From contig CALXMF010000013.1 in the NCBI GenBank assembly GCA_944389415.1, positions 1 through 57,185 of the forward strand: a DNA stretch of 57,185 nucleotides, written 5' to 3'. Source of the DNA: an uncultured Spirochaetota bacterium. GTDB taxonomy: Bacteria > Spirochaetota > Spirochaetia > Treponematales > Treponemataceae. Under the pieces are notes generated by a model that ran no database searches, was not told the origin of the DNA, and saw only the letters and a list, made by a program, of their open reading frames with translations. This document shows positions 23,368 through 52,623 of the stretch, in pieces (within the stretch, counting starts at the first letter, position 1; every line of letters starts with the position of its first letter). Made by a program: the position numbers and the translations under genes.

Positions 23368-23440
23368 GCCGCTGTAGCTCAGTTGGTAGAGCAAAGGACT
23401 GAAAATCCTTGTGTCGACAGTTCGATTCTGTCCGGCGGCA
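23368..23440 (+). tRNA. tRNA-Phe (GAA), copy 1
   Basis: The 73-nt cloverleaf has acceptor stem GCCGCTG / CGGCGGC (one G-T pair), D arm GCTC-AGTTGGTA-GAGC, anticodon arm AAGGA-CTGAAAA-TCCTT with anticodon GAA, variable loop GTGTC, T arm GACAG-TTCGATT-CTGTC and discriminator A. CCA is not encoded. An identical copy follows after 20 bases. Confidence 0.97.
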
Positions 23441-23460: not shown

Positions 23461-23533
23461 GCCGCTGTAGCTCAGTTGGTAGAGCAAAGGACTGAAAATC
23501 CTTGTGTCGACAGTTCGATTCTGTCCGGCGGCA
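23461..23533 (+). tRNA. tRNA-Phe (GAA), copy 2
   Basis: It is base-for-base identical to the tRNA at 23368-23440, with the same 73-nt cloverleaf and GAA anticodon. The two are separated by 20 bases and are probably cotranscribed from the promoter at 23328-23356 to the terminator at 23541-23565. Confidence 0.97.
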
Positions 23534-36167: not shown

Positions 36168-37073
36168 CTAGCGCAGAAGAGCAAGAACTGTCTGTGACTG
36201 TGCATTTGCCTGTGCAAGCATTGCTGTTCCAGACTGTGTGAGAATCTGGTTTTTTGTATACTGTACCATTTCTGATGCCATATCTGTATCGCGAATACGT
36301 GATTCAGCAGCCTGCAGATTCTCTGCAGCGATTGCAATACCTTTGGCAGCTGTTTCAAAACGGTTCTGATATGCGCCAAGATCTGCTCTCTGTCTTGAAA
36401 CAGTGCGCAGAGCATTATCAACAGTCGCAATAGCGATATTTGCACTTTCGGGGGAACCAATAGAAAGACGATCTGAATCGGTTGTAGCAGCAACAGTCTG
36501 ATCGCCTTCTGTACTCTGGACACTGGCAACACCCTGGCCGCCAGTTAACCCAAGAGATGCAGCTGTCATTGTACCAATATATACACGAACATTCTGATCA
36601 ATGTTTGCTCCGACCTGGAGCTGCATGACTTTACCGCTTGCTGAATCTGTTGCAAACGCTCCAGTCAGCATGTTCATACCATTGAACTGTGCTGAGCTTG
36701 CAATGCGATCTACTTCAGCAACTAATTGGGAAACTTCAACTTGAATCTGCATACGATCTTCATCGCTGTAAATACCGTTTGCAGACTGAACAGCAAGTTC
36801 TCGAATGCGCTGCAGAATATCTGTTGTTTCCTGTAAATAACCTTCTGTTGTTTGAATAAAAGAAACACCATTCTGAATATTTCTCTCTGCCTGATTCAGA
36901 CCTCGAATCTGAGAACGCAGCTTTTCTGATACAGCAAGACCGGAGGCATCATCTCCCGCCTTGTTTATACGCATACCAGAGCTGAGTTTTTCTATGTTGC
37001 CCTGAATAGCAGCAGTACTTAAGCCTAATGTACGATTTGCATACATAGAACTCATGTTGTGATTAATAACCAT
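36168..37073 (-). CDS. flaB: FlaB core flagellin (longer copy)
   Basis: The 301-residue flagellin has conserved D0/D1 ends: [54 protein letters not shown] at the N-terminus and [48 protein letters not shown] at the C-terminus. FlaB proteins form the core of the periplasmic filament and are exported by the type III gate. It differs from the other copy by about 15 extra residues in the surface region (about 185-215, Thr/Ser/Asp-rich). Own sigma-28-type promoter at 37333-37359; GGAGGG precedes the ATG. Confidence 0.97.
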
Positions 37074-37332
37074 AATAATAGCCCTCCATGTTCAATACAT
37101 GTGAAGCAATCCCTGCTTCATTATTTCTTTCCGTAATAGCTGATGAATAAATTGTGCGCCCTTAACTCAACAGCTTAACAAAACAGTTACTACATATCTG
37201 CAATAACTATTTATGTTATACGGTGACTTTGAAAAGCATTTAAAGATTTTTGCTTCCCTTGATGGGAGTATAATACCAGTTTGTGAGAAATTTGTAAAGC
37301 GAATTAAGAACTGTTATATGGTTTTTATTATA

Positions 37333-37359
37333 TTATCGGAAAAAAGTTTGCGGAGTTTA
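37333..37359 (-). promoter_or_regulatory. Sigma-28-type promoter for the second flaB
   Basis: On the - strand TAAA (37359-37356), exactly 15 bases, TCCGATAA (37340-37333): one mismatch to the consensus TAAA-N15-GCCGATAA. Transcription would begin near 37326, giving a ~250-nt leader before ATG 37073. The -35 lies in the end of a terminator stem and the -10 begins at the terminator T-run. Confidence 0.75.
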
Positions 37360-37376
37360 GTAAAAACTCCGCAAAC
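37340..37376 (-). terminator. Rho-independent terminator after the first flaB
   Basis: On the - strand GTTTGCGGAGTTT and AAACTCCGCAAAC form a 13-bp perfect stem (37376-37364 and 37358-37346) with a 5-base loop, followed by six T (37345-37340). It ends transcription of the flaB at 37387-38247, 11 bp after its stop. Confidence 0.93.
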
Positions 37377-37386
37377 CTACTTGTTA

Positions 37387-38247
37387 CTATCTGAGCAATG
37401 TCATGACAGTCTGTGACTGAGTGTTTGCCTGTGCAAGCATTGCAGTACCGGCCTGAAGCAGAATCTGGTTCTTTGTATATTCAACCATCTGCTTTGCCAT
37501 ATCTGTATCACGAATACGTGATTCAGAGGCCTGTGTATTTTCTGCGGCGATGTCAATGCCTTTTACAGCATATTCAAGACGATTTTGATATGCGCCGAGA
37601 TCTGCACGTTGCTTGTTGATCACTTTCAGAGCTTCATCAATTGTTCCGATAGTTCTGTTGGCATCTTCCGGTGTTGACAACTGTATAATGCTTTCTGAAG
37701 CAGCGTCGCGCAGACCGAGTGCACTTGCAGTCATGGTGCCGATATAGACAGCCATGCGCTGATCTATATTAGCTCCGATATGAAGCCACATGGATGCAGT
37801 AGGCGCATTACCATCTTCGACTCGTGCAAACCGGCCAGTCAGCATATTCATACCATTGAACTGTGCTGAACTTGCAATACGATCTACTTCAGCGACCAAC
37901 TGAGATACTTCCACTTGAATCTGCATACGGTCTTCATCAGTATAAATACCATTTGATGCCTGAACAGCAAGTTCCCGAATGCGCTGAATAATATCTGTCG
38001 TTTCCTGCAGATATCCTTCTGTTGTCTGAATAAAGCTAATGCCATTTGAAGCATTCATAGAAGCCTGATTCAGACCACGGATCTGACTGCGCATTTTTTC
38101 AGAAACTGCAAGTCCTGATGCATCATCTCCCGCCCGGTTAATCTTCATACCAGATGAAAGTTTTTCCATATCCTTCTGCAGACTTGAGTTAGTTACCCCA
38201 ATCTGGCGGTTGGAATACAGTGCTGACATGTTGTGGTTGATGACCAT
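37387..38247 (-). CDS. flaB: FlaB core flagellin (standard-length copy)
   Basis: The 286-residue flagellin has the same conserved ends as its neighbour ([72 protein letters not shown]), matching the length of treponemal FlaB1-3 (about 286). It forms the filament core. The frame is open to 38280, but GGAGGAAG and the universal MVINHNMS place the start at 38247. It has its own sigma-28-type promoter, a structured leader and a dedicated terminator, marking a strongly expressed gene. Confidence 0.97.
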
Positions 38248-38399
38248 AGTCTTCCTCCATGGAATATATTCGGATAGCATCCGTGCTGTCCGTTTGTAAG
38301 TTAAACACTAATATACAAGGCTCCATCAGTACATAACTTACGAGGGATTGCTACTTATCAGACTTTCTTCTACGAAGCTGATCTGATAACAGCTCTCCT
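38248..38399 (-). promoter_or_regulatory. Structured 5' leader of flaB
   Basis: The predicted ~150-nt leader has two stems. The first is at its 5' end: TTATCAGA (38355-38362) with TCTGATAA (38382-38389), and an inner CTTC/GAAG. The second is GTAAGTTA (38296-38303) with TAACTTAC (38334-38341). A 5' stem-loop often stabilises abundant mRNAs. The GGAGGAAG before ATG 38247 is unpaired by these stems. Confidence 0.5.
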
Positions 38400-38463: not shown

Positions 38464-41400
38464 TTAATGACGATCTTTTTTGTATATAGAAAGTAGGGCT
38501 TGATTATCTGATTTATTGTGTTTCTTATTCTTTATTCTTTTTTTCTTTTTTGAAAACGGAATAGATATAATTTCTTCCAGAAATGTGTCCGTCGTAGTTT
38601 CACAGGAAAATATGTTTTCAGATTCAGATATTTTGTCTTGTTGATGATCATGATTGATCTTGGGTTCTGTTATTTTTGAAGAATCCATATCTGTTGTGGA
38701 GAGTTCTGCTTTCTTTCGCGCCTCTTTTTCATCAAGAACAGCGAGTTGATTGCTGAGTGAATTAGGGTTATAGAAATTGTTTTCTCGACGGCGATTCAAT
38801 AATGTATAAAGTATTGGTGAGATAAAAAGAGTCATAAAAGCCCCTGACAGTAAGCCGCCCAAGATTGTCAGACAGATTGGCTGCATGGATTCAGCCCCCT
38901 CTCCAGGAAATAAAGCCATAGGAACCATTCCGAGTACAGTGGTAAGTGTACTCATTAGAATAGGACGAAGTCTGTTACGCCCAGCAAGGATACATGCTTT
39001 GAATACAGGGATTTTTTCTTTTACCAGCTGATTAGTAAAATCAACCAGAACAATTCCATTATTAACTACGATGCCTGCAAGGGCAACAATACCGACATAT
39101 GAATATAAAGTTACTGTCTGATCTGTAAGAAGATATGCTGCGGTGACACCGATGAAGAGTAGTGGAATTGAAAAAAATATAATCAGAGGATCAATGAGTG
39201 ATTCAAATTGAGCTGCCATGACAGCGAAAACCAAAAATATTGCTAATGCGATAACAATACGCAGTGCCTTCATGAATTTTTCAATATCCTGTGCGTCACC
39301 ACTATATGATAATTCAACTGTATCAGGAATTACTATGTTATCGGATATAATTTGTTCAATCTGAGTTTGTACTTCTGTGGCAACGGCTCCTGCCTGAAGA
39401 CGGGCAGTGATGCGGCTTATTCGTTCACCATCTTCACGTTGTATTCGTTGTGGTGCAGTCGTCTCAATATATGAGATAAAATTATCTAGTGTCATAAGGC
39501 CGTTTGTTGCTGATACAGTCAGCGCACCAATATCAGTTGGACTGAGCATATCAGTTTCTTTTAAAGAAACAATAATGTCTATATCTTCACCATTTGCATG
39601 AAATGTCGTTGCTGTTGATCCGCTAACCGCAGTTTTCATTACATTTGTAATATCTTTTACGCTTACACCTGCTGCAGCTGCTGCAGATGTGTTAACCGTT
39701 ATCTGAAATCGGGGATTACCATTTTCAAGATCCGTAGTTACTTCTGTTATTTCTGGAACTTTTTCTTTTAAGAGGGCAATGATTTCATCTGCTGTTGCCT
39801 TTGTCGCTTCATTATCGTTAGAAATGAGCCTGATTGTCATTGCACTGGAACTGCCTCCTGGTCCACGGTTCCCGCTGAATGTAATAGTAACATCACTCCA
39901 CATATCCAGATATGGCTGTAATTTTGATTTGATTTCTGTAGCGCTTATTTTCTGTTGGGATAGATCAGGAAGGTTTATTTGTATGGACCCAGTATTTGAA
40001 CTTCCTGTATCGAGCACTATTGTTTCATACGCATCACCTATTTCCGACAAAATAATTTCCTGAAAATCAAAGAGATACTGCGATACAACATCATTGTTTG
40101 TTCCAGTCGGCATTTGAAGAGATAAATTTACCTGATCATCAGCATTGGATGAAGGCGCAATATTCATTCCCATCGAAAGAAAAATCTGTATTGATACAAT
40201 GCACATTACAATAACGAGCATCAAAACGATAAAACGGTTGTGCAGACAAAAGTGCAGTACTCCTGCATATCCATATTCTATGAAATCGATTAAACGGACA
40301 ATCTGATTATCTATCCATTTAAGCATTTTATTATGTAATGGTTTTTGTGTTCGGGTATTTATTGGAAGAATACTGCCGCATAATGCCGGAACTAATGTAA
40401 CAGCTACGACTAAAGAGGCGGAAAGAGAAACACAAATAGTAATGACCATTTCTTTGAACATCTGACCATATGACTCTAATTCTGCTTGATAAATGAGTAT
40501 TGGGATAAATACACATAATGTTGTGAGAGTAGATGCGACAATTGCATTAAGCATATTGCGGCTCCCTAGAATTGCCGCAATGGCAGATGGTTCTCCTTTT
40601 TCTCGTCTGAGTGTGATATTTTCAAGGATAACAATAGACGAATCAACCATCATTCCCATACCAAGGATCAGACCGGACATTGTCATCATATTGATTGTTA
40701 AATCCATCATCGCCATGACCATCAGTGTGAGCAGAATGGAAATGGGCATAGACAAACCGATAATCAGTGCGCTTCTTATACCACGCAAAAAGAAAAAAAT
40801 AACCAACATTGCAAGTACTGCACCTTCAATTCCAGAGGAGTATACTTGATTCATTGTGGAATTTATTAGAGTAGCATCATCACTTAAAATTCTGACGGAG
40901 ATACCTTTAGGAAGCCGAGCATTAATTTCTGGTAGTATTTCATGAATTCCTCGGGATATCGCAGACGCATTAGAACCTGATTCATTGGATACACTAATAT
41001 ATAGTGCTGGTACACCATTTATGTATACATCTCGTCCGTTATCATCATAATTTTCGTATACATCAGCAATATCATCAATAGTAATTGCAGCACCTGATTT
41101 TAATGCTACAACAGTTTGCCGGATATCATCTAAATTACTATAGTATTCACTGGTAACGATTTCGTAATCGATTCCCTGTTGTGTCATTGTTCCGCTGGAT
41201 GTTTGGATATTCCGGGCTGATAATGCTGCGGTTATCTGCGGAATAGTCAGTCCATATGCTTCAAGCCGGTTTCTCTGAAGATCAATACGAATTTCTTTTG
41301 TACGGCCTCCCATAACATCTGTTGCAGCTACTCCCTCAACTCGTTCAAGAAGTGGTTGGATAATATCTTCTGCAAGATTTTTTAATTCATAAAGAGGCAG

Positions 41401-41838
41401 ATCTCCATCAATAACAAGACGCATAATAGCGCGTGAATCTGAATCGAATTTTCGTATTGATGGGGTACCACAGTTATCAGGCAATGAATTGGAAATATTG
41501 GCCAATGCTGATGTGACATCGTTGAATGCTTCATCCATATCTTGATCATATCCAAACTCCAGAAAGACACTGCTTCGACCAGATCTTGATGTGGAAGTAA
41601 TTTTTTGGACTCCTTTTACACGGGTTAGGCGATTTACAATCACATCAGTAACATTCTGATCTATTTCTTCTGGTCCAACATCAGTATATGTTGTATTAAC
41701 AGAAAGGAAGGGATATGTTGTTGATGGGAATAAAGCGATACCAAGTCGTGGAATATATACACAGGCAATGACACAAAGTAACAGGAATACCATTGTCATG
41801 GCCACTGGTCGTCTGACAGATAATTCGGAAATATTCAT
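38464..41838 (-). CDS. RND efflux transporter, inner-membrane pump (HAE1/AcrB-like)
   Basis: The 1124-residue protein has the RND plan: TM1 (VRRPVAMTMVFLLLCVIACVY), a first periplasmic loop, TM2-6, TM7, a second loop and TM8-12 (FLVFAVMAAQFESLIDPLIIFFSIPLL, GIVVNNGIVLVDFTNQL, LSGAFMTLFISPILYTLL). TM4 reads MGMMVDSSIVILEN, keeping the first of the two proton-relay aspartates of AcrB and having Ser at the second. A ~100-residue cytoplasmic tail, ending in a Lys-rich SKKKKRIKNKKHNK stretch, is unusual. The frame is open to 41895, but GGGGC before ATG 41838 (MNISELSVRRP) gives the family N-terminus. Last gene of the - strand pump operon. Confidence 0.95.
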   Translation of the reverse strand: MNISELSVRRPVAMTMVFLLLCVIACVYIPRLGIALFPSTTYPFLSVNTTYTDVGPEEIDQNVTDVIVNRLTRVKGVQKITSTSRSGRSSVFLEFGYDQDMDEAFNDVTSALANISNSLPDNCGTPSIRKFDSDSRAIMRLVIDGDLPLYELKNLAEDIIQPLLERVEGVAATDVMGGRTKEIRIDLQRNRLEAYGLTIPQITAALSARNIQTSSGTMTQQGIDYEIVTSEYYSNLDDIRQTVVALKSGAAITIDDIADVYENYDDNGRDVYINGVPALYISVSNESGSNASAISRGIHEILPEINARLPKGISVRILSDDATLINSTMNQVYSSGIEGAVLAMLVIFFFLRGIRSALIIGLSMPISILLTLMVMAMMDLTINMMTMSGLILGMGMMVDSSIVILENITLRREKGEPSAIAAILGSRNMLNAIVASTLTTLCVFIPILIYQAELESYGQMFKEMVITICVSLSASLVVAVTLVPALCGSILPINTRTQKPLHNKMLKWIDNQIVRLIDFIEYGYAGVLHFCLHNRFIVLMLVIVMCIVSIQIFLSMGMNIAPSSNADDQVNLSLQMPTGTNNDVVSQYLFDFQEIILSEIGDAYETIVLDTGSSNTGSIQINLPDLSQQKISATEIKSKLQPYLDMWSDVTITFSGNRGPGGSSSAMTIRLISNDNEATKATADEIIALLKEKVPEITEVTTDLENGNPRFQITVNTSAAAAAGVSVKDITNVMKTAVSGSTATTFHANGEDIDIIVSLKETDMLSPTDIGALTVSATNGLMTLDNFISYIETTAPQRIQREDGERISRITARLQAGAVATEVQTQIEQIISDNIVIPDTVELSYSGDAQDIEKFMKALRIVIALAIFLVFAVMAAQFESLIDPLIIFFSIPLLFIGVTAAYLLTDQTVTLYSYVGIVALAGIVVNNGIVLVDFTNQLVKEKIPVFKACILAGRNRLRPILMSTLTTVLGMVPMALFPGEGAESMQPICLTILGGLLSGAFMTLFISPILYTLLNRRRENNFYNPNSLSNQLAVLDEKEARKKAELSTTDMDSSKITEPKINHDHQQDKISESENIFSCETTTDTFLEEIISIPFSKKKKRIKNKKHNKSDNQALLSIYKKDRH

Positions 41839-41851
41839 AAAATGCCCCTTA

Positions 41852-42796
41852 TTATATTGCAGATATTGTTTCTGCAATACGTACGGGAGCACCATCCGTG
41901 ACAGAACCGGCTGTTATAACAATATCACCAATATTGATTCCGCTGGTGATCTGGATATGGGTATCGTTTTGCAATCCTATCGTAACAGGAACTCGAACCG
42001 CGGTATTATCTTCTGTAACACAAAATACGGTGTATCCATCATTAAATTCCTTTAAAGCTCCTTTTGGAATCACCAGAGTATTATTTTCTTGCTGAATAAT
42101 CAGCTCAACCGAGGCAAACATGCCGGGTTTGAGCATGTTCGTTTGTTTTTTGGGAGTCAATGTTACATCAAGGGTTCTGCTTGTTTTATCTACGACAGGA
42201 CTTATGGAGGTGACCGTCGCTTCTGTTATTTTATCCGGTTCGGATACAGTACTTATAAATGCGCTTAGTCCCTGTTTGAGGTATGAACTATATTTTTCAG
42301 ATACATTTACATGTATTTCAAGATTTGTAAGAGAACCAACGGTTGCAATGCAGGTGTTTATTGTTACGGTGTCGCCTACATTTACTGGATTACTGATAAT
42401 AGTTCCGCCAACAGTAGCCGTTACCGGACTGAGGGCATACGCAGATCCTGGTTTGGAAGGATCGATATAGGCGATAATATCTCCTTTATATACTCTGTTG
42501 CCTTCGTCAATTAAAAGTCGGCTGACAGTTCCGCCTGTGTGCGGATACAAATTAACTTCTGTTTTTGATGCGACTTCACCGTTTAGTTTTATAGTCCTAT
42601 TAATTGCTTGCGGTTGAATTTCAATAGTTGATACAGTAATTGTCTTTGTCTGGACAGCTGGTCTTTGTGTTTTTGAGGAGCCGATATTTTTTTTATCTGT
42701 TACTATGTGTGCAATTCCAATAAATGTGAACAGTCCGATTAATATTATAACAATAATTTTTCCGATTATATCGATTAGATGATCTGTATTTTTCAT
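41852..42796 (-). CDS. RND efflux membrane fusion protein (periplasmic adaptor)
   Basis: The 314-residue protein has an N-terminal membrane anchor (DIIGKIIVIILIGLFTFIGIAH), then a split lipoyl domain (LNGEVASKTEVNLYPHTGGTVSRLLIDEG... and SPVTATVGGTIISNPVNVGDTV), a beta-barrel (VTSISPVVDKTSRTLDVTLTP, LKPGMFASVELII) and a membrane-proximal domain (VIPKGALKEFNDG, GLQNDTHIQITSGINIGDIVITAG). No long alpha-hairpin is seen between the lipoyl halves, so it is a compact adaptor. It bridges the pump at 38464-41838 and the outer-membrane channel. GGGGGAT favours ATG 42796 over 42808; it overlaps the channel gene by 4 bp. Confidence 0.92.
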   Translation of the reverse strand: MKNTDHLIDIIGKIIVIILIGLFTFIGIAHIVTDKKNIGSSKTQRPAVQTKTITVSTIEIQPQAINRTIKLNGEVASKTEVNLYPHTGGTVSRLLIDEGNRVYKGDIIAYIDPSKPGSAYALSPVTATVGGTIISNPVNVGDTVTINTCIATVGSLTNLEIHVNVSEKYSSYLKQGLSAFISTVSEPDKITEATVTSISPVVDKTSRTLDVTLTPKKQTNMLKPGMFASVELIIQQENNTLVIPKGALKEFNDGYTVFCVTEDNTAVRVPVTIGLQNDTHIQITSGINIGDIVITAGSVTDGAPVRIAETISAI

Positions 42797-44100
42797 TCTA
42801 TCCCCCATAATGAATATACATCAGTAATACTTAATTGCAGCGCATCTGCAAGATTGTATACTGCTGAAAAATAATTTATTTCAGCCTGAACAACAGCCTG
42901 CCATGCGCTGGTCATATCCTGCCGGGACGTCTCAAGATCCGTTTGACTCACTAAGCCATTATTATACCCGTCCTGTGCCAGAGAATATGCGCGCTCTGTA
43001 ATCTGATGATTTAGGCGGGATATTTTGAGTGTTTCATACAGTCTTTTTGTTTCATCGACACAGTCTGAGATATTTTGTGCAGCTTTTTTTTCTCCGATTT
43101 CTAATGCGATTTGTGCAGAAGTAACAGCATTATCAGCGGCGGCAATAGAAAGACTATCTTGTGACCCGGGAATGAATCCATCAATCGGAATATTTAAAGA
43201 AATACTGAAAGAACCACCTGCACCTGGTACGGAACTGAATGCTTTATTTGTATCTGGAGATAATTTGATTGATTCGCTCAGGCTGAGTGTGGGAGCCCGT
43301 GCTGATAATATCGTCATCAATTTATCAAGTTGAGTCTGTTTTACTTCCTGTTGCAAACGAATGATATCAAATCGGTTTGTGCTGTATGAATCTGTAAGTA
43401 CCTGTACATCAGGTAAATTTAATTCATACAGAGGCGGTATATCGTGTTCGTCTGGTTCTCCTCCGTCCGCGCCAATAAGAATGAGAAACGATCTTAATGA
43501 TGACTCATAGGCACTTTCGGCAGCCTGCAATTCCGGCCCTGCTTTCTGATATGCATATTGTGAACGTAGCATATCAAGTTCTGAGGTGAGTCCGTAATCA
43601 TAGTTTATTTTGTTCTGCCGATACACTTCTTCTGAGAGTGTCAGGTTGTTTTTTAGAATTGAAATATTCGTTCGGAGTGCAATCAAAGCATAATAGGATA
43701 AAATTACTTGTTTGATAATACTTCTTTCTAATTGATTATACTGAGTCTGGGCTGTTTCCACCGCAAGAGATTTCTGCGTTAATTTGAGGGGGGTATTAGA
43801 AGGTAAGCTTAATGAAATACCAGCGGAAGCATTCCAGCCCCACATAGAAACGTTTTCAGGAGTAAATACATGAGTGTTTGATATACCGCCTCCTGCGGAC
43901 AGCGAAGGTAAAAATATATTCCATCTGTTCTCGTTTTCTTTTTGTGCGTTTTCAAGCAGAAGTGCTTGTTGCCGTAGTTCTGCGTTATGTTGAAGAGCCA
44001 TCTGTACTGATTCATCAACCGAAAATGCAAAAGTAAGCATATTCGCAGCAGTAAAAAGTAGCCACCCTGATATAAGCGCCTTGACGGCTGTAAGTCTCAT
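42793..44100 (-). CDS. TolC-family outer membrane efflux protein
   Basis: The 435-residue protein has a signal peptide (ALISGWLLFTAANMLTFAF), then two repeats of the OEP family, each with long helices (AQTQYNQLERSIIKQVILSYYAL, RQNKINYDYGLTSELDMLRSQYAYQ; then QISLEIGEKKA-type and YSLAQDGYNNGLVSQTDLETSRQDM). It forms the outer-membrane tunnel of the tripartite pump. It is the first gene of the - strand operon, divergent from a second OEP gene across a 277-bp control region. Confidence 0.92.
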   Translation of the reverse strand: MRLTAVKALISGWLLFTAANMLTFAFSVDESVQMALQHNAELRQQALLLENAQKENENRWNIFLPSLSAGGGISNTHVFTPENVSMWGWNASAGISLSLPSNTPLKLTQKSLAVETAQTQYNQLERSIIKQVILSYYALIALRTNISILKNNLTLSEEVYRQNKINYDYGLTSELDMLRSQYAYQKAGPELQAAESAYESSLRSFLILIGADGGEPDEHDIPPLYELNLPDVQVLTDSYSTNRFDIIRLQQEVKQTQLDKLMTILSARAPTLSLSESIKLSPDTNKAFSSVPGAGGSFSISLNIPIDGFIPGSQDSLSIAAADNAVTSAQIALEIGEKKAAQNISDCVDETKRLYETLKISRLNHQITERAYSLAQDGYNNGLVSQTDLETSRQDMTSAWQAVVQAEINYFSAVYNLADALQLSITDVYSLWGIE

Positions 44101-44144
44101 GGAAGTATTTCCCCTGTTGTAATATCTGATATTGATATCTTTTC

Positions 44145-44287
44145 TAACAAGTATAACGAATTGTTACCTGTTTTTGTAACACTTATAACAAATATAAACT
44201 ATAACAAATATAAACACAATTTATTGAGAACTATATTTTTTTATTATTGTAAAAAACGCAGATAACAAAAAATTAGTTATACATAAC
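44145..44287. promoter_or_regulatory. Operator-rich control region between divergent efflux operons
   Basis: The region carries TAACAA (44145-44150) with TTGTTA (44161-44166) as an inverted pair with a 10-base centre, and TGTTAC (44162-44167) with GTAACA (44176-44181). A perfect 16-bp tandem repeat of TATAACAAATATAAAC (44184-44199 and 44200-44215), a further TAACAA (44263-44268) and the palindrome GTTAT-AC-ATAAC (44276-44287) follow. No convincing -35/-10 pair was found. The repeats look like binding sites for a regulator of both operons. Confidence 0.65.
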
Positions 44288-44377
44288 AGATTTTTAGTCT
44301 GTATTTACCTGTTTTTTATGGAGTTTACCCGTTTGTACACATATAGTGTAGCACAGTTTGAAACTTTTGGAGGCTAT

Positions 44378-45643
44378 ATGAAACGTATTTGCGGCTTGCT
44401 AGTTGTATGTGGACTTTGTGCCGCTGCAGCGGCACAGACCGTATTTACTGCAGACACCGCCGTTGAAACAGCATTGAAAAATAATATTTCTGTAAAACGG
44501 AGTGCGTTGTCTCTTGATGGGTTGGAACGTGTTAAAAATCACGCTTGGAACAGTATGTCTCCTGATATCAGTGCTGGTGCAGGAATACAGGTTCCAAATA
44601 AATCAAATGCATATGATTTAACTGCGTATGGTAACGTTTCTATTGGGGTAGTCTTTTCACCTGGGCGTATTAGTAACATAAAAACAGCTGTATTACAGTA
44701 TGAAGCAGGACAGCTGTCTTATCGGGATGCGTGTCGTGCTGTTGAACTTGCGGTTCGGCAATCATTCTATGGATTGCTGTATGAACAGTCTTATATTGAA
44801 CAGCAGGAACGTACTTTAGAAACAGCTCGGCAGCAGTATGAACAGAATCTCAGACAGTATAATGCTGGCCGCATCAGCGAATTGGATGTTTTGTCTGCTC
44901 AAGTCGCCTATGAACAAATAAAACCTCAGCTTGAAAGCGCACGGATAACTTTTATGAATGATATGGATACATTTAAAGTTCTTCTTGGGCTTTCTCCGGA
45001 GGATGCAATAGAACTTGAAGGATCATTGGATACATTGCTTGATCTTGAGGAATTGTCGCTTGATGGTATCGAAATTTGTCCTGCTGGTATAGAATCTCTG
45101 GAAAAATCTTTGGAAATAGCACAAGCAGATCTTACGGCTGCAAAATTATCAGCGTATGCACCGGATTTATCCGTAAGTTGGAATTATCAGCCTCAGGCTG
45201 CTAATTCAGACTGGCAGTTGTGGGGCGATAGTGGTGCTTTAAGTGTAGGAATATCACTGCCAATTGATAGTTGGTTTCCTTGGTCAGAGTCTGCTGATAC
45301 TATTGCTGCTGCAAAAGATGAAGTTGCGGATATCGGACTTCAACTGGAAGATGAAAAACAGCAGACTGCTAATTCAATTGTTTCGGCGCTTCGCCAAATA
45401 GAGAAATGCCGTACATCTATTGTATCGTGCAAAGCAAATGTTGCTCTGGCGGAAAAATCTTATGAACTTGCATTAGATGCATACAACCGCGGAGCAAGAG
45501 ATTTTTTAAGTCTCCAGGATGCTTCAGATACATTATTTGAAGCTCAAGTTGCGCTTTTATCAGAAGCCTATCAACTTGGTGTTGAGATTCTTTCTCTTGA
45601 AGATATTACCGGTGTTCCCTTTGGAACATTTACAGTTCAATAA
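44378..45643 (+). CDS. TolC-family outer membrane efflux protein
   Basis: The 421-residue protein has a signal peptide (MKRICGLLVVCGLCAAAAAQ) and two OEP repeats (RQSFYGLLYEQSYIEQQERT, YNAGRISELDVLSAQVAYEQ; second half KSYELALDAYNRGARDFLSLQ, DASDTLFEAQVAL). It is the outer-membrane channel of the + strand RND pump. The frame is open to 44318, but TTTTGGAGG directly before ATG 44378 and the signal peptide fix the start. It is a paralogue of the divergent OEP, with limited similarity to it outside the family motifs. Confidence 0.92.
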   Translation: MKRICGLLVVCGLCAAAAAQTVFTADTAVETALKNNISVKRSALSLDGLERVKNHAWNSMSPDISAGAGIQVPNKSNAYDLTAYGNVSIGVVFSPGRISNIKTAVLQYEAGQLSYRDACRAVELAVRQSFYGLLYEQSYIEQQERTLETARQQYEQNLRQYNAGRISELDVLSAQVAYEQIKPQLESARITFMNDMDTFKVLLGLSPEDAIELEGSLDTLLDLEELSLDGIEICPAGIESLEKSLEIAQADLTAAKLSAYAPDLSVSWNYQPQAANSDWQLWGDSGALSVGISLPIDSWFPWSESADTIAAAKDEVADIGLQLEDEKQQTANSIVSALRQIEKCRTSIVSCKANVALAEKSYELALDAYNRGARDFLSLQDASDTLFEAQVALLSEAYQLGVEILSLEDITGVPFGTFTVQ

Positions 45644-45670
45644 AACTATATATTAGTAAGGAGCATGATT

Positions 45671-46609
45671 ATGGCAAAAAAAACAACCGTAGTCGTATTT
45701 TTTGTTTGTGTACTTGCTGTCGCTGCAGCTGTTTTTATTCCGCAGTCTGCCAGTGGAAAGCCTATTCCTGCAGTAGAATCTGCGACAGCAGTGTATACTG
45801 TACGCAGTGAAAAAGTGGTACAGCAGAATCTTATCTCATATATTCAGACAAATGGCGATGTTGAAGCCGCTAGTTCCATAGAAGTATACCCTGATATGGG
45901 AGGAAAACTTGTTCGGACATCAGTAGCTTTAGGATCTCAGGTTCGTAAAGGACAGGTAATTGCAGAAGTAGATCCTTCTACACCTGGTGTTCCCTATGCA
46001 ATAAGCCCTGTTCGGGCACCATTGTCCGGGGCGATAACATCAGTACCTCTTCAGCCTGGTACAACTGTGACGGTAAATACACCAATTGCCGTTATTGGCA
46101 GTATTGATGATATTCAGATATCAGCAAATATCCCTGAACGATATGCCTCTTTACTGAAACCTGGATTAAAAGCAGATATTACTCTTGAGGCATATCCAGG
46201 CATTATTTTCCCAGCTACTGTTACTAGGGTGTCTCCGGTAGTAGATGCTCTTTCACGGACTAAAGAAATACAACTTATTTTTGAACAGAGTGATGATAGA
46301 ATTAATGCAGGTATGTTTGCAAAAATTAAATTATATACTACTGAAACAGATAATGTATTAACAATCCCTGAAGCATGTATTGTAACTTCTTTTGGAAATA
46401 AATCTGTATTTGTTCTTAATGGAGATAGTACTGTCAGTCAAAGAGAGGTTACAACGGGTATGTCCGTTGACGGTATTGTAGAAGTAAAAACAGGTCTGAA
46501 TCTTGATGACCGCGTTATTGTGGAAGGAATGCAGCTGCTTACTGATGGTGCCGTTGTTCGTGATATTTCTCAGAATTCTTCATCTGTATCGAATGGAGGC
46601 GCCGTATGA
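45671..46609 (+). CDS. RND efflux membrane fusion protein (periplasmic adaptor)
   Basis: The 312-residue protein has an N-terminal membrane anchor (TVVVFFVCVLAVAAAVFIPQ), a split lipoyl domain (NGDVEAASSIEVYPDMGGKL; SPVRAPLSGAITSVPLQPGTTV), a beta-barrel (VTRVSPVVDALSRTKEIQLIF) and a membrane-proximal domain (VLTIPEACIVTSFGNKSVFV, GLNLDDRVIVEGMQLL). It resembles the adaptor at 41852-42796 in length and layout, so the two pumps are probably duplicates. AAGGAG (45658-45663) favours ATG 45671 over 45665. It overlaps the pump gene by 4 bp. Confidence 0.92.
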   Translation: MAKKTTVVVFFVCVLAVAAAVFIPQSASGKPIPAVESATAVYTVRSEKVVQQNLISYIQTNGDVEAASSIEVYPDMGGKLVRTSVALGSQVRKGQVIAEVDPSTPGVPYAISPVRAPLSGAITSVPLQPGTTVTVNTPIAVIGSIDDIQISANIPERYASLLKPGLKADITLEAYPGIIFPATVTRVSPVVDALSRTKEIQLIFEQSDDRINAGMFAKIKLYTTETDNVLTIPEACIVTSFGNKSVFVLNGDSTVSQREVTTGMSVDGIVEVKTGLNLDDRVIVEGMQLLTDGAVVRDISQNSSSVSNGGAV

Positions 46610-49600
46610 GTCCGTCAAAGGCTGCGGTAGAACATCCTGTTCTGACACTGATTGTATTTTCTTTGCTTGGTATTATGGGTATTTTTACGTTGAGCAATGT
46701 TGCTATCGATTTATTTCCTGATACTGATATTCCTATGATTGTCGTTATGACGGAGTATGAAAATGCCGGTCCTGAATCTGTAGAAAAATCAGTAACAGAA
46801 GTACTTGAAAGCGCGCTTGTCAGTGTAAGTGATCTCGATACGATGACATCAACTTCATCTGAAGGCTCATCGATGATTATGCTTGAGTTTAATTATGGTA
46901 CTGATCTTGATGTCGCGACAAATGATATTCGTGATAAGATTGACCGAGTTGAACGAAGACTGCCGGATGATGTTGAAAATCCAAGTATTATGAAAATGGA
47001 TGCGTCTTCAATGCCGATTATGCGTGTTGCTGTACGTGGAAATCGATCAAGTAATGAGCTTAAAGAAATTGCAGATGATATGATTGCAGATCAATTGGAA
47101 CAGACTGCAGGTGTTGCAGAGGCAACTGTTTCTGGTGGTGATGAAAAAATTATCCGCATAGAGATCTCCCGAAATAGGCTTGATGCATTTGGCTTAACAT
47201 TAACTGAGATTGCAGATAATCTTGCCGCCCAGAATTTGGAGCTTGGCGGTGGAAAGATTACTGAGCAGGATAGAGATTATAGTATCCGTACAACAGGAGA
47301 ATTTTCTTCTATAGAACAGATAGCAAACACTGTTGTTTCAACTGTGAATGGGTATGGGGTTCGTTTGTGTGACCTGGGGGAGGTGTTTGAAGGATACGAA
47401 GATAAATCAAATGCAGTATATATTAACGGCGAAGATGGTGTTTATATCGGTATAGTTAAACAGAGCGGTAAAAATTCAGTTGCAGTAGCTAATGCTGTGT
47501 ATAAAAAACTGGATGAAATTCAGAAAACCCTGCCATCTGATATTACTCTTGAAATTGTCTCTGATGATACTGACCAGATACGTGATACGATCAGTATTCT
47601 ATTAGATTCTGCATGGCAGGGGCTGCTGCTTGCCGTCGTTATTCTTTTCTTATTTCTTAAGAGTATGAAAAGTACTCTTATTATATCTATCTCGATTCCC
47701 GTATCTATTATTATCACATTGTTAGCCATGTATATGGCTGATATTACGCTGAATATGATGACCCTAACAGGACTGATTCTTGGTGTAGGGATGATTGTAG
47801 ATGCTTCTGTTGTTATGATAGATAATACGTATTCATATAGAATGCGTGGAGCAAAACCCCATATTGCCGCAATGATTGGCGCATCAGAAATGTTATCTTC
47901 TGTTGTATCTGGCAACCTGACTACGATATGTGTATTTGTGCCCTTTATTTTATTTCAAAGTGCACTGGGGATGATGGGCGAGATGTTTAAGAGCATGATT
48001 TTTACTGTTATCATTGCACTTGTCTCGAGTTTGTTTGTTGCAATATTTCTTGTGCCTGCGCTTGCTGGCCATTTTTTACCGCTGACCAATCGTAATGAAA
48101 AACCAGTTAAGAACAGAATTTTAAAAACAGTATACGGTTTCCTTGATAAAGTTCTTGATGTTATTACTGAGGTTTATCGTAAAATGTTAAATGCGGCGCT
48201 GAATCATCGTGTGATAACAATTTTGATTGTCGCAACACTGTTTATCGTAAGTATAATTCAAGTTGTGCACATGAATATCATTATGATGCCTACAGGACAA
48301 GACAGTTCTGTGACTCTTAATGTGGAATTACCTATCGGGACAACATTGGAAGAAACGGATGCTGTGATGAAACAGCTTGAACGTGCTGCAATGGAAGAAA
48401 TTCAGGGATATGAATCAATTATTACGAGCGTTGGTACTGGAGGCAGCCGCCGGAGTGGTGATGCATCTTATAAAGGTTCATTAAGTATTCAGCTGCCTGA
48501 GACGGCATTGCAGATCGATACATCAGATGATGTAAAACGAAAACTCCGTGAACATTTCCAGGATTTTCCTGGTGCCACTATGTCATTTGGACAGGGAATG
48601 GCCGCGTCAATGGTTGGAGATGATCTTGATATTGCCATACGTTCTGATGATCTTGATACTGCATATGAAATTGCTGTTGCGATTCAGAAAATAATGAATA
48701 GCATGGATGATATTGGCGAAGCAACTATTGATCTGACAGAAGGATTGCCGCAGGTAGAAATTCAGATAGATCGAGAACGTGCGTATGCATTTGGTCTTAC
48801 TGTTACCGCGGTTGCTAATGAAATAAATGCCTGTATAGATGGTGTTACTGCTTCTGTATATCGTAATAATGGAGATGATTACGATATGGTTGTTATGCTT
48901 CGTCCTGAAGACCGTGAGCAGGTTGTAGACTTGGAACAGATTTATATTAACAGTTCAAACGGACGTGTCAGTGTTGCCAATTTTGCTCAGGTAGTAAAGG
49001 GAACCGGACCTGTAAGTATCAATCGTGAAGACCAAACTCGTATTATACATGTTACCGCTGATATTGTAAGTGATACCCGTGCTGATATTATTGAAAATAA
49101 CATCAGAAGTGCCATAGCAGAGACCATGGTAGTACCTGAATCTGTTTCTATAAGTTATGAAGGTTCTTGGCAGAATATTCAGGAAGATGGTGCTGTGTAC
49201 ATGCAGATTATATTACTGGCGATTATTCTGGTATTTGGAGTTATGGCGGGTACGTATGAATCGTTTAAGGCTCCTCTTATTAATTTGCTGACTATTCCAA
49301 TGTTTATGATAGGTGTTGTTGCCATATATATGGTGATGGGACAGCCGCTTTCAATGATGTCTATGATTGGGATCATAATGCTTGTTGGAATTGTAGTTAA
49401 TAATGGTATTATTTTAGTTGATTATACAACACTCTTGCGTGAACGAGGAATGGAACTTCAGAAAGCCTGTCTGGAAGCTGGTGTTTCGCGTCTGCGGCCG
49501 GTATTGATGACGACATTGACGACGATACTTGGTATGCTGCCGATGAGTTTTAATACAGAGGGCAGTGCAGCAATCGTTCAGCCAATTGCGTTATGCGTGA

Positions 49601-49743
49601 CTGGCGGTTTGACATCAAGTACTTTTATTACATTGCTGTTTATTCCTGTTGTTTATTCATTGGTTATGAAAAATGAACACGGAAAGAAACAGGTATCTAC
49701 CGCACTGGTAAATTTAAAACAACTGGAGGAACAGAATGTATAA
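46606..49743 (+). CDS. RND efflux transporter, inner-membrane pump
   Basis: The 1045-residue RND pump starts MSPSKAAVEHPVLTLIVFSL, has 12 membrane helices in the usual 1+5+1+5 order, two large periplasmic loops, and TM4 GVGMIVDASVVMIDNTYS, again with one relay aspartate and Ala in place of the second. Later motifs include ILVFGVMAGTYESFKAPLIN, GIVVNNGIILVDYTTLLRE and LRPVLMTTLTTILGMLPM. It lacks the long basic tail of the divergent pump. Substrates are unknown. Its last 8 bp overlap the following PII-like gene, so the pair is probably translationally coupled. Confidence 0.95.
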   Translation: MSPSKAAVEHPVLTLIVFSLLGIMGIFTLSNVAIDLFPDTDIPMIVVMTEYENAGPESVEKSVTEVLESALVSVSDLDTMTSTSSEGSSMIMLEFNYGTDLDVATNDIRDKIDRVERRLPDDVENPSIMKMDASSMPIMRVAVRGNRSSNELKEIADDMIADQLEQTAGVAEATVSGGDEKIIRIEISRNRLDAFGLTLTEIADNLAAQNLELGGGKITEQDRDYSIRTTGEFSSIEQIANTVVSTVNGYGVRLCDLGEVFEGYEDKSNAVYINGEDGVYIGIVKQSGKNSVAVANAVYKKLDEIQKTLPSDITLEIVSDDTDQIRDTISILLDSAWQGLLLAVVILFLFLKSMKSTLIISISIPVSIIITLLAMYMADITLNMMTLTGLILGVGMIVDASVVMIDNTYSYRMRGAKPHIAAMIGASEMLSSVVSGNLTTICVFVPFILFQSALGMMGEMFKSMIFTVIIALVSSLFVAIFLVPALAGHFLPLTNRNEKPVKNRILKTVYGFLDKVLDVITEVYRKMLNAALNHRVITILIVATLFIVSIIQVVHMNIIMMPTGQDSSVTLNVELPIGTTLEETDAVMKQLERAAMEEIQGYESIITSVGTGGSRRSGDASYKGSLSIQLPETALQIDTSDDVKRKLREHFQDFPGATMSFGQGMAASMVGDDLDIAIRSDDLDTAYEIAVAIQKIMNSMDDIGEATIDLTEGLPQVEIQIDRERAYAFGLTVTAVANEINACIDGVTASVYRNNGDDYDMVVMLRPEDREQVVDLEQIYINSSNGRVSVANFAQVVKGTGPVSINREDQTRIIHVTADIVSDTRADIIENNIRSAIAETMVVPESVSISYEGSWQNIQEDGAVYMQIILLAIILVFGVMAGTYESFKAPLINLLTIPMFMIGVVAIYMVMGQPLSMMSMIGIIMLVGIVVNNGIILVDYTTLLRERGMELQKACLEAGVSRLRPVLMTTLTTILGMLPMSFNTEGSAAIVQPIALCVTGGLTSSTFITLLFIPVVYSLVMKNEHGKKQVSTALVNLKQLEEQNV

Positions 49744-50263
49744 AAATGATTCAGATACAGATGAGATAAAAATAAATATAAAAAAAATAGAGAAAAAGAT
49801 ACTGGAGAAATTAGAAAAACATGCAGCGGGGAAAGTAAAGGAACTTGAGGAACAGGTTATCTCTTTATCGCAGCATATTTCCCAGATTGAGGAGGTTTTA
49901 AAAGATAAGATATCTCACAAAAATTTGAATTACTGTTCTGAGAACGCTGAGAAATGTACTGATGAAAGCTCTGATTGTATATATAGATGTGAAATCATTG
50001 CGAACCAGTCTGTTCTTGAAGATGTTACAGAAGTTTTAGAAACTGCTGTACCTGATATCTTATATACTATATTTCCAATGGTTCATGGTCGCGGCGGCAA
50101 TGATAGGAAACTTGGAAATATAACCTGGCCCGAAACAAATTTTGTTTTAGTATCTTACACTGATAAGTCAAATGTTATGTCTATTCGACGTGCTGTTGCT
50201 GCGGTAAAACAAAGGTTTAAAGATGAGGGCATTAAACTGTTTGTGATTGTAAGTGATGTATAA
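49736..50263 (+). CDS. Coiled-coil protein with cysteine cluster and PII-like domain
   Basis: The 175-residue protein has three parts. Residues 10-60 form a charged coiled coil (KIEKKILEKLEKHAAGKVKEL). Residues 67-85 hold four cysteines (67, 74, 81, 85; spacing C-x6-C-x6-C-x3-C). Residues 82-175 resemble PII/DUF3240-type proteins (RCEIIANQSVLEDVTEVLE, PMVHGRGGNDRKLGNITWPE, VLVSYTDKSNVMSIRRAVAAVKQRF). PII-like proteins next to RND or cation transporters are thought to regulate them. It overlaps the pump gene and is followed by a terminator, so it belongs to the pump operon. Metal or small-molecule binding is inference. Confidence 0.7.
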   Translation: MYKNDSDTDEIKINIKKIEKKILEKLEKHAAGKVKELEEQVISLSQHISQIEEVLKDKISHKNLNYCSENAEKCTDESSDCIYRCEIIANQSVLEDVTEVLETAVPDILYTIFPMVHGRGGNDRKLGNITWPETNFVLVSYTDKSNVMSIRRAVAAVKQRFKDEGIKLFVIVSDV

Positions 50264-50385: not shown

Positions 50386-50398
50386 TAACAAGTTGTTA
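50386..50398. promoter_or_regulatory. TAACAA-G-TTGTTA palindrome before the response regulator
   Basis: A perfect palindrome with 6-bp arms around a single G lies about 70 bp before the response-regulator ATG (50467). The same half-site recurs five times in the control region of the two efflux operons. It may be an autoregulatory site. Confidence 0.5.
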
Positions 50399-50466: not shown

Positions 50467-51192
50467 ATGAAGGCGAATGTTCTGATAATTGAAGATGTAC
50501 GAGAACTTGCAGAACTTGTATCTATGTATTTGGCAAAAGAAGGTATGGAAACGGTGTTGTGCGAAACGGCAGAGGAGGCAATAGAACAGCTTAAAACGCA
50601 GTCGTTTGATTTAGTTGTTCTTGATTTAAACCTTCCTGGGATGGATGGTTTTGAATTCTTAAGTATCTTTCGCAAGGAGTATGCCACTCCTGTTTTAATT
50701 ATGTCTGCCCGTGATGCGGATGAAGATATTATTGCGGGGCTTGGCGGCGGCGCGGATGAGTTTGTGACAAAACCATTTTCTCCGCGTGTTTTTGCTGCTC
50801 GAGTACGTGCTCTTGTGCGTCGTTCACAGGAAACAGTTATTCCTGAAACAGAAAATACAATTCGTTTTGGCGATTATGTTTTATATGAGAATACCTGTGT
50901 TTTAAAAAAGGGGAATGACCGTGTTGCGCTTTCAGCTAAGGAATATGCGGTACTTGATTATCTAGTTCATAATGCCGGTAAACCTATTCTTCCTGAAGTT
51001 ATTTATAATAACGTGTGGCAGAATAATTATGGTGATTTATCTGCCGTTGCTGTGTATATACAGCGGCTGCGCAAAAAACTGGAAGATGATCCAGCCTTTC
51101 CTGTTTATATAGAAACTGTCTTTGGTATGGGGTATCGTTTTAATTTAGATGGGCATCCAAAACCAATGAATACGGGCGGTGCTCAGAATTAA
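50467..51192 (+). CDS. OmpR/PhoB-family response regulator
   Basis: The 241-residue protein has a receiver domain (IIED at 7-10, phospho-Asp53 in LVVLDLNLPGMDG, MSARDADE, Lys in FVTKPFSPRV) and a C-terminal winged helix (ALSAKEYAVLDYLVHNAGKP, AVYIQRLRKKLEDDP, IETVFGMGYRFN). It is paired with the sensor kinase 18 bp downstream. The frame opens at 50440, but AGAGGTG before ATG 50467 and the family N-terminus (MKANVLIIEDV) set the start. Position after the pump operon and the shared TAACAA motif suggest it controls efflux; this is inference. Confidence 0.94.
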   Translation: MKANVLIIEDVRELAELVSMYLAKEGMETVLCETAEEAIEQLKTQSFDLVVLDLNLPGMDGFEFLSIFRKEYATPVLIMSARDADEDIIAGLGGGADEFVTKPFSPRVFAARVRALVRRSQETVIPETENTIRFGDYVLYENTCVLKKGNDRVALSAKEYAVLDYLVHNAGKPILPEVIYNNVWQNNYGDLSAVAVYIQRLRKKLEDDPAFPVYIETVFGMGYRFNLDGHPKPMNTGGAQN

Positions 51193-51210: not shown

Positions 51211-52623
51211 ATGAAAATTAAGACACAATTTTTGATTCTTGTTGCCGGTATAGTATTAATCCCGACTCTGATTTTTGGGACAATGCTGCTGCTTGCTTAT
51301 TATCGTTCTCCAGACCGTGTTTTTACACCAGGAGTAAAAGATATTGTTTTAAATATTGATGTTCCTGTAGATTCAAAGCAGCTGCATCATATTGAGCGGT
51401 TTATACAAAATCTGCCGCCAAATGTTCAATGCGCAGTTCTTGATGAGAATGGAAAGGTTGTGTTTTCAGGAATGCCGGAGATAAAATCTGGCGATATACT
51501 GAAAGACGGTGATGTTATGAATCTCGTACGAAATTCAAATAAGCATTATCTTTATCAAATAGATTTAAATTTTGGTGCTGATAATAAATCGAAAGAAACA
51601 TTGTCTGAAGAAAGTAAAAAGCGGGCGCTTGTGCTGCTTACCCGTGTTGCCCGAGATGTGGCTAAACGTCCTAATCTGTTTCTGGATATATTTTTCGCTA
51701 TGCTGTCAGTATTTGCGGTAGTATTGATTTTTACAGCTGTTTTGCTGATATGGATTGCGCGGTCTGTAACTCAATCAGTTACGTTATTAGAAGATGCAAC
51801 AAGAAGACTTGCTGCCGGTGATTTGGATACAGAAATTGTGGTTACTGGCAGTAATGAGATAACATCTCTTTCTGATTCGCTTAACCGTATGCGTGTCGCG
51901 TTAAAGGATCAAATGCTGCGCCGTTCACGCTTTATTATGGGACTCAGCCATGATTTGCGTACGCCAATTGCTCTTATTAAAGGATATAGTGAAGCGATAA
52001 AAGATGGAATGGCCGATGATCCTGTTATGCTTGAAAAATCTCTGAACATTATTGGCACCAAGATTGACCAGCTTGAGAACTTGATTAATAGCTTGATAGA
52101 TAGTGTACGGCTTGAATCAAGTGAATGGAAAGGAAAACTGGCACCCTGTGCTTTATCTTCATTTTTAACTGCATATGCGGAACGTACTGTTGCCGATGGT
52201 AATTTACTGCATAAAAAGATAGATACAGTCATTTCCATTCCGGAAACGGTGACTTTGCAGGTTGATGAAGAAATGCTCAGTCGTCTTTTAGATAATATAG
52301 TAGGGAATGCATTTCGATATACCAATGATGATGGCTATATCAAATTTTCAGCAATCTATTCTGCTGATTCACATCTTAAAGAACCGTATTCCGGCAATGT
52401 ATATATAACAATTTCTGATAACGGGTGCGGTATCGAAGAAAAGGATATTCCCTATATCTTTGATTCTTTTTACAGAGGAACCAATTCCCGCCGTGAAGAA
52501 GGGTACGGTTTTGGACTGTCTGCAGTAAAACATATTGCTGATTCGTATGGGTGGAAGGTGCAAGTAAACTCCACTGTGGGCGTTGGTTCTCTATTTACCA
52601 TAACTATACCCGTGCAGTTATAA
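51211..52623 (+). CDS. Membrane sensor histidine kinase
   Basis: The 470-residue kinase has two membrane segments (about 5-32 and 158-185) enclosing a ~125-residue periplasmic sensor domain without recognised family. HAMP (VTQSVTLLEDATRRLAAGDL), HisKA (FIMGLSHDLRTPIALIKGYSE, phospho-His in SHDLRTP) and HATPase boxes (LLDNIVGNAFRYTNDDGY, ISDNGCGIEEKDIPYIFDSF, GYGFGLSAVKHIADSYG) follow. It phosphorylates the adjacent OmpR-type regulator. The signal is unknown; neighbouring efflux genes make envelope or toxic-compound stress plausible. Confidence 0.94.
   Translation: MKIKTQFLILVAGIVLIPTLIFGTMLLLAYYRSPDRVFTPGVKDIVLNIDVPVDSKQLHHIERFIQNLPPNVQCAVLDENGKVVFSGMPEIKSGDILKDGDVMNLVRNSNKHYLYQIDLNFGADNKSKETLSEESKKRALVLLTRVARDVAKRPNLFLDIFFAMLSVFAVVLIFTAVLLIWIARSVTQSVTLLEDATRRLAAGDLDTEIVVTGSNEITSLSDSLNRMRVALKDQMLRRSRFIMGLSHDLRTPIALIKGYSEAIKDGMADDPVMLEKSLNIIGTKIDQLENLINSLIDSVRLESSEWKGKLAPCALSSFLTAYAERTVADGNLLHKKIDTVISIPETVTLQVDEEMLSRLLDNIVGNAFRYTNDDGYIKFSAIYSADSHLKEPYSGNVYITISDNGCGIEEKDIPYIFDSFYRGTNSRREEGYGFGLSAVKHIADSYGWKVQVNSTVGVGSLFTITIPVQL

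Follow-up and report, generated by a model that had tools for sequence, protein, structure and literature searches.

A conserved element between divergent RND efflux operons of a gut Treponema is the predicted operator of an OmpR-family regulator

Results

Two divergent RND operons flank an AT-rich gap

The stretch of DNA analyzed here (hereafter the window) is contig C13, 57,185 bp, of the 2.6-Mb genome of a member of the Treponemataceae, a gut Treponema. Within it, a 277-bp gap (44101–44377, 74% A+T) separates two divergent tripartite RND efflux operons, one on each strand. The plus operon encodes, in order, TolC (44378–45643, OEP domain), a membrane fusion protein (MFP; 45665–46609, HlyD_D23), the RND permease (46606–49743, ACR_tran), a PG0541-family protein whose PII-like domain follows an N-terminal coiled coil (49736–50263), an OmpR/PhoB-type response regulator (50467–51192, Response_reg plus Trans_reg_C) that is the predicted binder of the gap, and its histidine kinase partner (51211–52623). 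The regulator, a receiver joined to a winged-helix Trans_reg_C domain, thus adjoins a kinase of HAMP-HisKA-HATPase_c architecture. The minus operon, read from the opposite strand, consists of TolC (42793–44100, OEP), MFP (41852–42808) and RND permease (38464–41895). We name minus-type and plus-type pumps after these two operons; the two types stay separate in relatives. The true start of the plus-operon TolC is the ATG at 44378, which follows a GGAGG and closes the gap; the open reading frame listing also offers an in-frame ATG upstream, at 44318.

The product of 49736–50263 scores 74.1 bits against the PG0541-family model NF045581 (cut-off 45), and proteins of this family end plus-type RND operons across the order. 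By AlphaFold model and Foldseek, its C-terminal domain groups with the PII/SbtB nucleotide-binding signaling proteins; the window version and that of Candidatus Treponema faecavium (G001, the sole genus mate available for comparison) carry an extra ~60 N-terminal residues, modeled in the window protein as one long helix. Beside the minus operon lie two adjacent flagellin genes followed by a FlaG gene (36168–38280). An Rfam scan of the window returned no RNA element in the gap and only two tRNAs (23368–23440 and 23461–23533, 20 bp apart, with equal model scores).

The minus and plus operons are divergent in T. faecavium also, where two contig ends that share 42 identical overlapping bases bring them together. 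The T. faecavium gap is enlarged by repeated dyads, TTTGCCG(A/T)(T/C)GGCAAA (L103 1–200, L088 1–90), which are absent from the window.

The conserved element lies apart from most of the conspicuous repeats

The initial annotation had described this gap as a repeat-rich operator region, with more TAACAA/TTGTTA half-sites than base composition would suggest, and all of the repeats that it named are present. They comprise a perfect 16-bp tandem (TATAACAAATATAAAC at 44184–44199 and 44200–44215), an inverted repeat TAACAA-N10-TTGTTA (44145; 44161–44166), a second, TGTTAC-N8-GTAACA (44162; 44176–44181), and an additional TAACAA at 44263, the fifth half-site. The excess of half-sites also holds (5 in the gap, where 5000 dinucleotide-shuffled versions average 0.95; p 0.0012), and an exact direct repeat of at least 16 bp arises in 0.02% of gap shuffles, these p values being post hoc in that the repeats were picked after inspection of the gap. 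Across the whole window TAACAA alone is not enriched (62 occurrences, 55 expected). The 16-bp unit was considered as a dispersed element and discarded, genome-wide matches numbering 93/63 against 98/75 for the reversed control.

Alignment with T. faecavium sorts these features. The 16-bp tandem is present there as a single copy, and on this comparison is therefore a lineage-specific duplication; TTGTTAC (44161–44167), part of both named inverted repeats, is lost. The elements TAACAAGTATAACGAAT, TTTTGTAACA and ATAACAAATATAAA are retained. On the plus side, TAACAAAAAATTAG and, 21 bp on, TAACAGATTTTTA of the window pair with TAACAGAAAATTAG and, again 21 bp on, TAACAGTTTTTTA of T. faecavium; the TAACAA at 44263 reads TAACAG in the relative, inside a retained TAAC-N5-ATTA. 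As judged by alignment, then, the conspicuous repeats are mostly not what is conserved: the tandem and both inverted repeats fail the comparison, and it is the region of the fifth half-site, 44260–44276, that is the conserved element.

An order-wide motif identifies the main predicted operator

Orthologues of the regulator, 55–93% identical, were gathered from 80 genome loci; their DNA recognition helix is nearly invariant, which fits a single motif for all of them. An unbiased expectation-maximization search of 72 non-redundant gaps before orthologous regulators, with the window and T. faecavium excluded and the plus-operon promoters of loci L104–L106 likewise outside the training set, found the motif ATATAACAAAAAATTAT and used 90% of the gaps (this matrix supersedes a first one derived from pattern-selected sites, which was biased by construction). 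In an independent count of spacings, also excluding the window, TAAY-N5-RTTA was present in 49 of 82 regulatory regions against 4.6 in shuffles, and other spacings of the TAAY/RTTA pair gave no comparable peak. Matches of at least 14 bits occur in 57 of the 80 gaps and at only 8 positions across the other 1.06 Mb, in-sample counts that include the training sequences.

The best match in the 57,185-bp window, held out from training, is AGATAACAAAAAATTAG (44260–44276, plus strand; core TAACAAAAAATTA, 44263–44275; reverse complement TAATTTTTTGTTA), at 18.3 bits with the next at 13.9. The best held-out match before the plus-type TolC scores 17.7 bits in T. faecavium, at the position corresponding to 44260–44276, 20.5 in L104, 17.1 in L105 and 15.8 in L106. 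A second, weaker site, ACATAACAGATTTTTAG (44281–44297, plus strand, 7.6 bits; TAACAGATTTTTA at 44284–44296), lies 21 bp or two helical turns from the main site, a spacing that is the same in T. faecavium (TAACAGTTTTTTA); measured from the downstream promoter, it lines up with the main site in three more genomes. That promoter has a probable −10, TATAGT (44342–44347, plus strand; TATAGTG kept in T. faecavium), and no recognizable −35; a scan of 44000–44500 for sigma70-type promoters found none.

That the repeats of the gap are functionless, low-complexity products of chance is a reading in keeping with its A+T content, with a tandem not kept as such and with inverted repeats that are broken in T. 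faecavium. Five plus-operon promoters, all kept out of training, have a motif match in the same position, and the minus side has a conserved block (below); this makes it very improbable.

The exact core TAAYTTTTTGTTAT has two copies in the 2.6-Mb genome, the other one inside a gene, leaving the gap copy as the only intergenic one. Such pattern searches had genome-wide scope, whereas the matrix scan covered the 57-kb window. The genome-wide search with the 14-mer TAAYTTTTTGTTAT gave no enrichment over the reversed control, and a shuffle test on the window gap alone was modest (6/3000) because the region is AT-rich. A large TAAC-N5-GTTA regulon was rejected, with 21 places in the genome against 59 for the reversed control.

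The motif accompanies the regulator and its transporter operons

Across species, regulator genes are linked to TolC–MFP–RND operons: 25 loci have the gene and such an operon, plus-type or minus-type, in divergent orientation with the site between, and in 5 loci (L103–L106 among them) the gene follows a plus operon, as in the window. The strong half TATAACAAA of the top site holds the same orientation to the TolC operon in all divergent loci having a match, and the plus-operon sites of the window and L103–L106 share it. In L123 and L168 the regulator lies at the end of a transporter operon of the MacB or LolDE type, and the top site shifts to the operon front; these fronts, of operons ending in orthologous regulator–kinase genes, account for two of the 8 sites outside the gaps (L123 3837–3853; L168 3115–3131). 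A third (L124 1166–1182) is close upstream of a separate membrane-fusion-protein-like gene, gene identities at all three loci being judged from sequence by eye.

In relatives, the site before the regulator gene mostly lies 16 or 27–28 bp upstream of a TTGnnn-N17/18-TATACT-like promoter, offsets that differ by one helical turn, as for an activator. The window has TAACAAGTTGTTA (50386–50398) upstream of its regulator gene, 21 bp before TTGCTC-N17-TATTAT; T. faecavium retains both this site, one of the 21 TAAC-N5-GTTA in the window's genome, and the promoter that follows it (21–22 bp apart in the two genomes). The window site fits the N5 spacing and scores 4.7 bits in the unbiased motif, which is not significant. 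In a subgroup, mostly rumen Treponema, GTTA-N12/13-TAAC occurs instead of or beside TAAY-N5-RTTA upstream of the regulator (8 and 9 regions against ~0.4 expected; L147, L149, L150, L163, L170, L175 and similar), and is perhaps a variant site.

These data also bear on whether the element might be an AT-rich UP element or curved DNA that aids RNA polymerase, as opposed to a protein-specific operator. The site does have an A/T tract at its center and does sit upstream of promoters; its fixed TAAC-N5-RTTA ends and constant orientation are unlike a general polymerase contact, its offsets from the −35 fall mostly one helical turn apart (16 versus 27–28), and with those 8 matches elsewhere it is confined to transporter and regulator promoters. 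We consider this explanation improbable.

Comparison between genomes supplies the site itself and shows it to be conserved, rare between genes genome-wide, tied to the regulator family and constant in orientation to transporter operons; together these describe a conserved pump-promoter site that appears specific to the regulator at 50467. The earlier proposal that this regulator acts through the gap finds good comparative support for the plus pump operon; the evidence rests on TAACAAAAAATTA at 44263–44275 and not on the tandem or the two inverted repeats that the proposal listed ahead of it.

The probable minus-operon promoter is conserved and carries half-site-like matches

A 55-bp block (44144–44198, minus strand; TAACAAGTATAACGAA, GTAACAnnnATAACAAATATAAA) covers the probable minus-operon promoter, with the minus-strand TATACT at 44155–44150 as likely −10. 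It is 84% identical to T. faecavium contig C88 (E 2.4e-8) amid otherwise unalignable intergenic DNA, and by this measure is clearly under constraint. Motif matches here are half-site-like: those in the window score 0.5–5.6 bits, and those in T. faecavium do not exceed 3.1. The highest, TAACGAATTGTTA (44154–44166, 5.6 bits), is a TAAC-N5-GTTA match with the spacing enriched in relatives and is not kept in T. faecavium; the two tandem units (44184–44215, plus strand) score 1.5 and 0.5 bits, their strong half TATAACAAA being the motif half and the other half degenerate. A MerR-type site was rejected, since the 19-bp spacer that both genomes permit encloses no conserved palindrome.

Either the regulator uses this weaker half-site array, or another protein acts at the minus promoter. 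The first reading, in which the regulator controls both pumps (44260/44281 for plus, the TAAC half-sites of 44145–44215 for minus), draws on relatives whose regulator gene is divergent from a minus-type pump with a strong site between (8 of 9 such gaps reach 14 bits), on the block conserved in T. faecavium and on the divergent arrangement shared with that genome. Against these stand the low scores of the array in both genomes and its 9-bp direct TAAC spacing, for which relatives show no enrichment; we regard control of both pumps as quite possible, if somewhat short of an even chance. The co-regulation originally proposed thus gains from relatives in which the site serves minus-type pumps too, and loses by the weakness of the matches at the window's own minus promoter.

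The second reading assigns the repeats of 44144–44215, as an operator, to an unlinked regulator other than that at 50467, making the gap two independent switches. The conservation of the block, and a TAAC-N5-TAAC logic unlike the order-wide motif set over the likely −10, would suit it; no candidate regulator gene adjoins the minus operon, and the half-sites look like the strong half of the motif of the 50467 regulator. We hold it as a tentative alternative.

A model for activation of the plus pump operon

We consider it likely, from the comparative evidence, that 44260–44276 and its weaker partner 21 bp downstream form, in this divergent promoter region, the operator of the OmpR-family regulator 50467, activating the plus pump operon. 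In this model, kinase 51211 would phosphorylate the regulator, dimers of which would occupy the same helical face at both sites (about −85 and −64 relative to the probable start point) and recruit RNA polymerase to a plus promoter without a good −35. The TolC–MFP–RND–PII-like genes would be switched on, and regulator and kinase would also be raised, wholly or partly by read-through, giving positive feedback. The bound complex might act on the minus operon as well, which is a guess that we lean slightly against. Binding, phosphorylation, the start point and activation rather than repression are what we infer; activation is favored since the sites lie upstream of a conserved TATAGT with no good −35. 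Several features speak against the operator reading: the low motif score of the site at 50386, the GTTA-N12/13-TAAC of a subgroup of relatives, the modest shuffle result for the window gap, and the motif being an imperfect inverted repeat, whereas direct repeats are frequent binding sites of OmpR-type regulators.

Discussion

The gap, as read from sequence comparison, is a regulatory region that is real and conserved, if ordinary in kind, whose key element is 44260–44276 and not the repeats that first catch the eye. Control of efflux in spirochaetes is little studied, and a precise candidate operator of 17 bp common to dozens of Treponemataceae and related genomes predicts the small regulon of this regulator in each genome and ties the regulator to several transporter types. 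A broader and more speculative proposal, which we think unlikely to hold in full, is that an order-wide spirochaete regulator–operator pair (ATATAACAAAAAATTAT) kept one regulator while swapping targets (two RND types, MacB-type, LolDE-type), and that here it would switch both divergent pumps, the PII-like protein linking pump control to nucleotide state.

The switch itself would be of a standard bacterial kind, and we found no description of it in this spirochaete group: searches of open-licence papers on Treponema, efflux and regulators turned up none on an OmpR-type regulator controlling Treponema RND pumps. Among known systems, AdeRS-AdeABC likewise has OmpR-type regulator and kinase genes adjoining a tripartite RND pump. 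AdeR of Acinetobacter baumannii binds the adeR–adeA spacer at a 10-bp direct repeat, AAGTGTGGAG (PMC9426577), whereas the motif here is the imperfect inverted ATATAACAAAAAATTAT; the window regulator stands at the end of the pump operon and is not divergent from it, although it is divergent in most relatives, and it scores 118.1 bits against the AdeR model NF012227 (cut-off 340).

CusR and its relatives (CopR/CzcR) are OmpR-type regulators that bind palindromes between divergent regulator and RND, efflux or metal genes, with one site serving both directions and a small regulon (PMC11195947). Their placement of the site resembles that seen here; their half-sites (TGACAAnnTTGTCA; ATTCATnnATGTAAT) differ from our motif, and no metal-resistance genes were recognized near the window pumps. 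The regulator scores 128.9 bits against the heavy-metal regulator model TIGR01387 (cut-off 279.2), and the two permeases 462.2 and 402.6 bits against the CusA/CzcA heavy-metal RND model TIGR00914 (cut-off 701.45); both permeases score higher on multidrug than on CusA/CzcA models, all below the curated cut-offs. BaeSR and envelope-stress control share the principle of two-component control of RND pumps, and the window kinase weakly resembles BaeS/CpxA models at scores below their cut-offs, giving no membership at the level of sequence. The best reading is that the system would work like AdeRS-AdeABC and CusRS-CusCFBA, by OmpR/PhoB-type two-component control of an adjacent RND pump.
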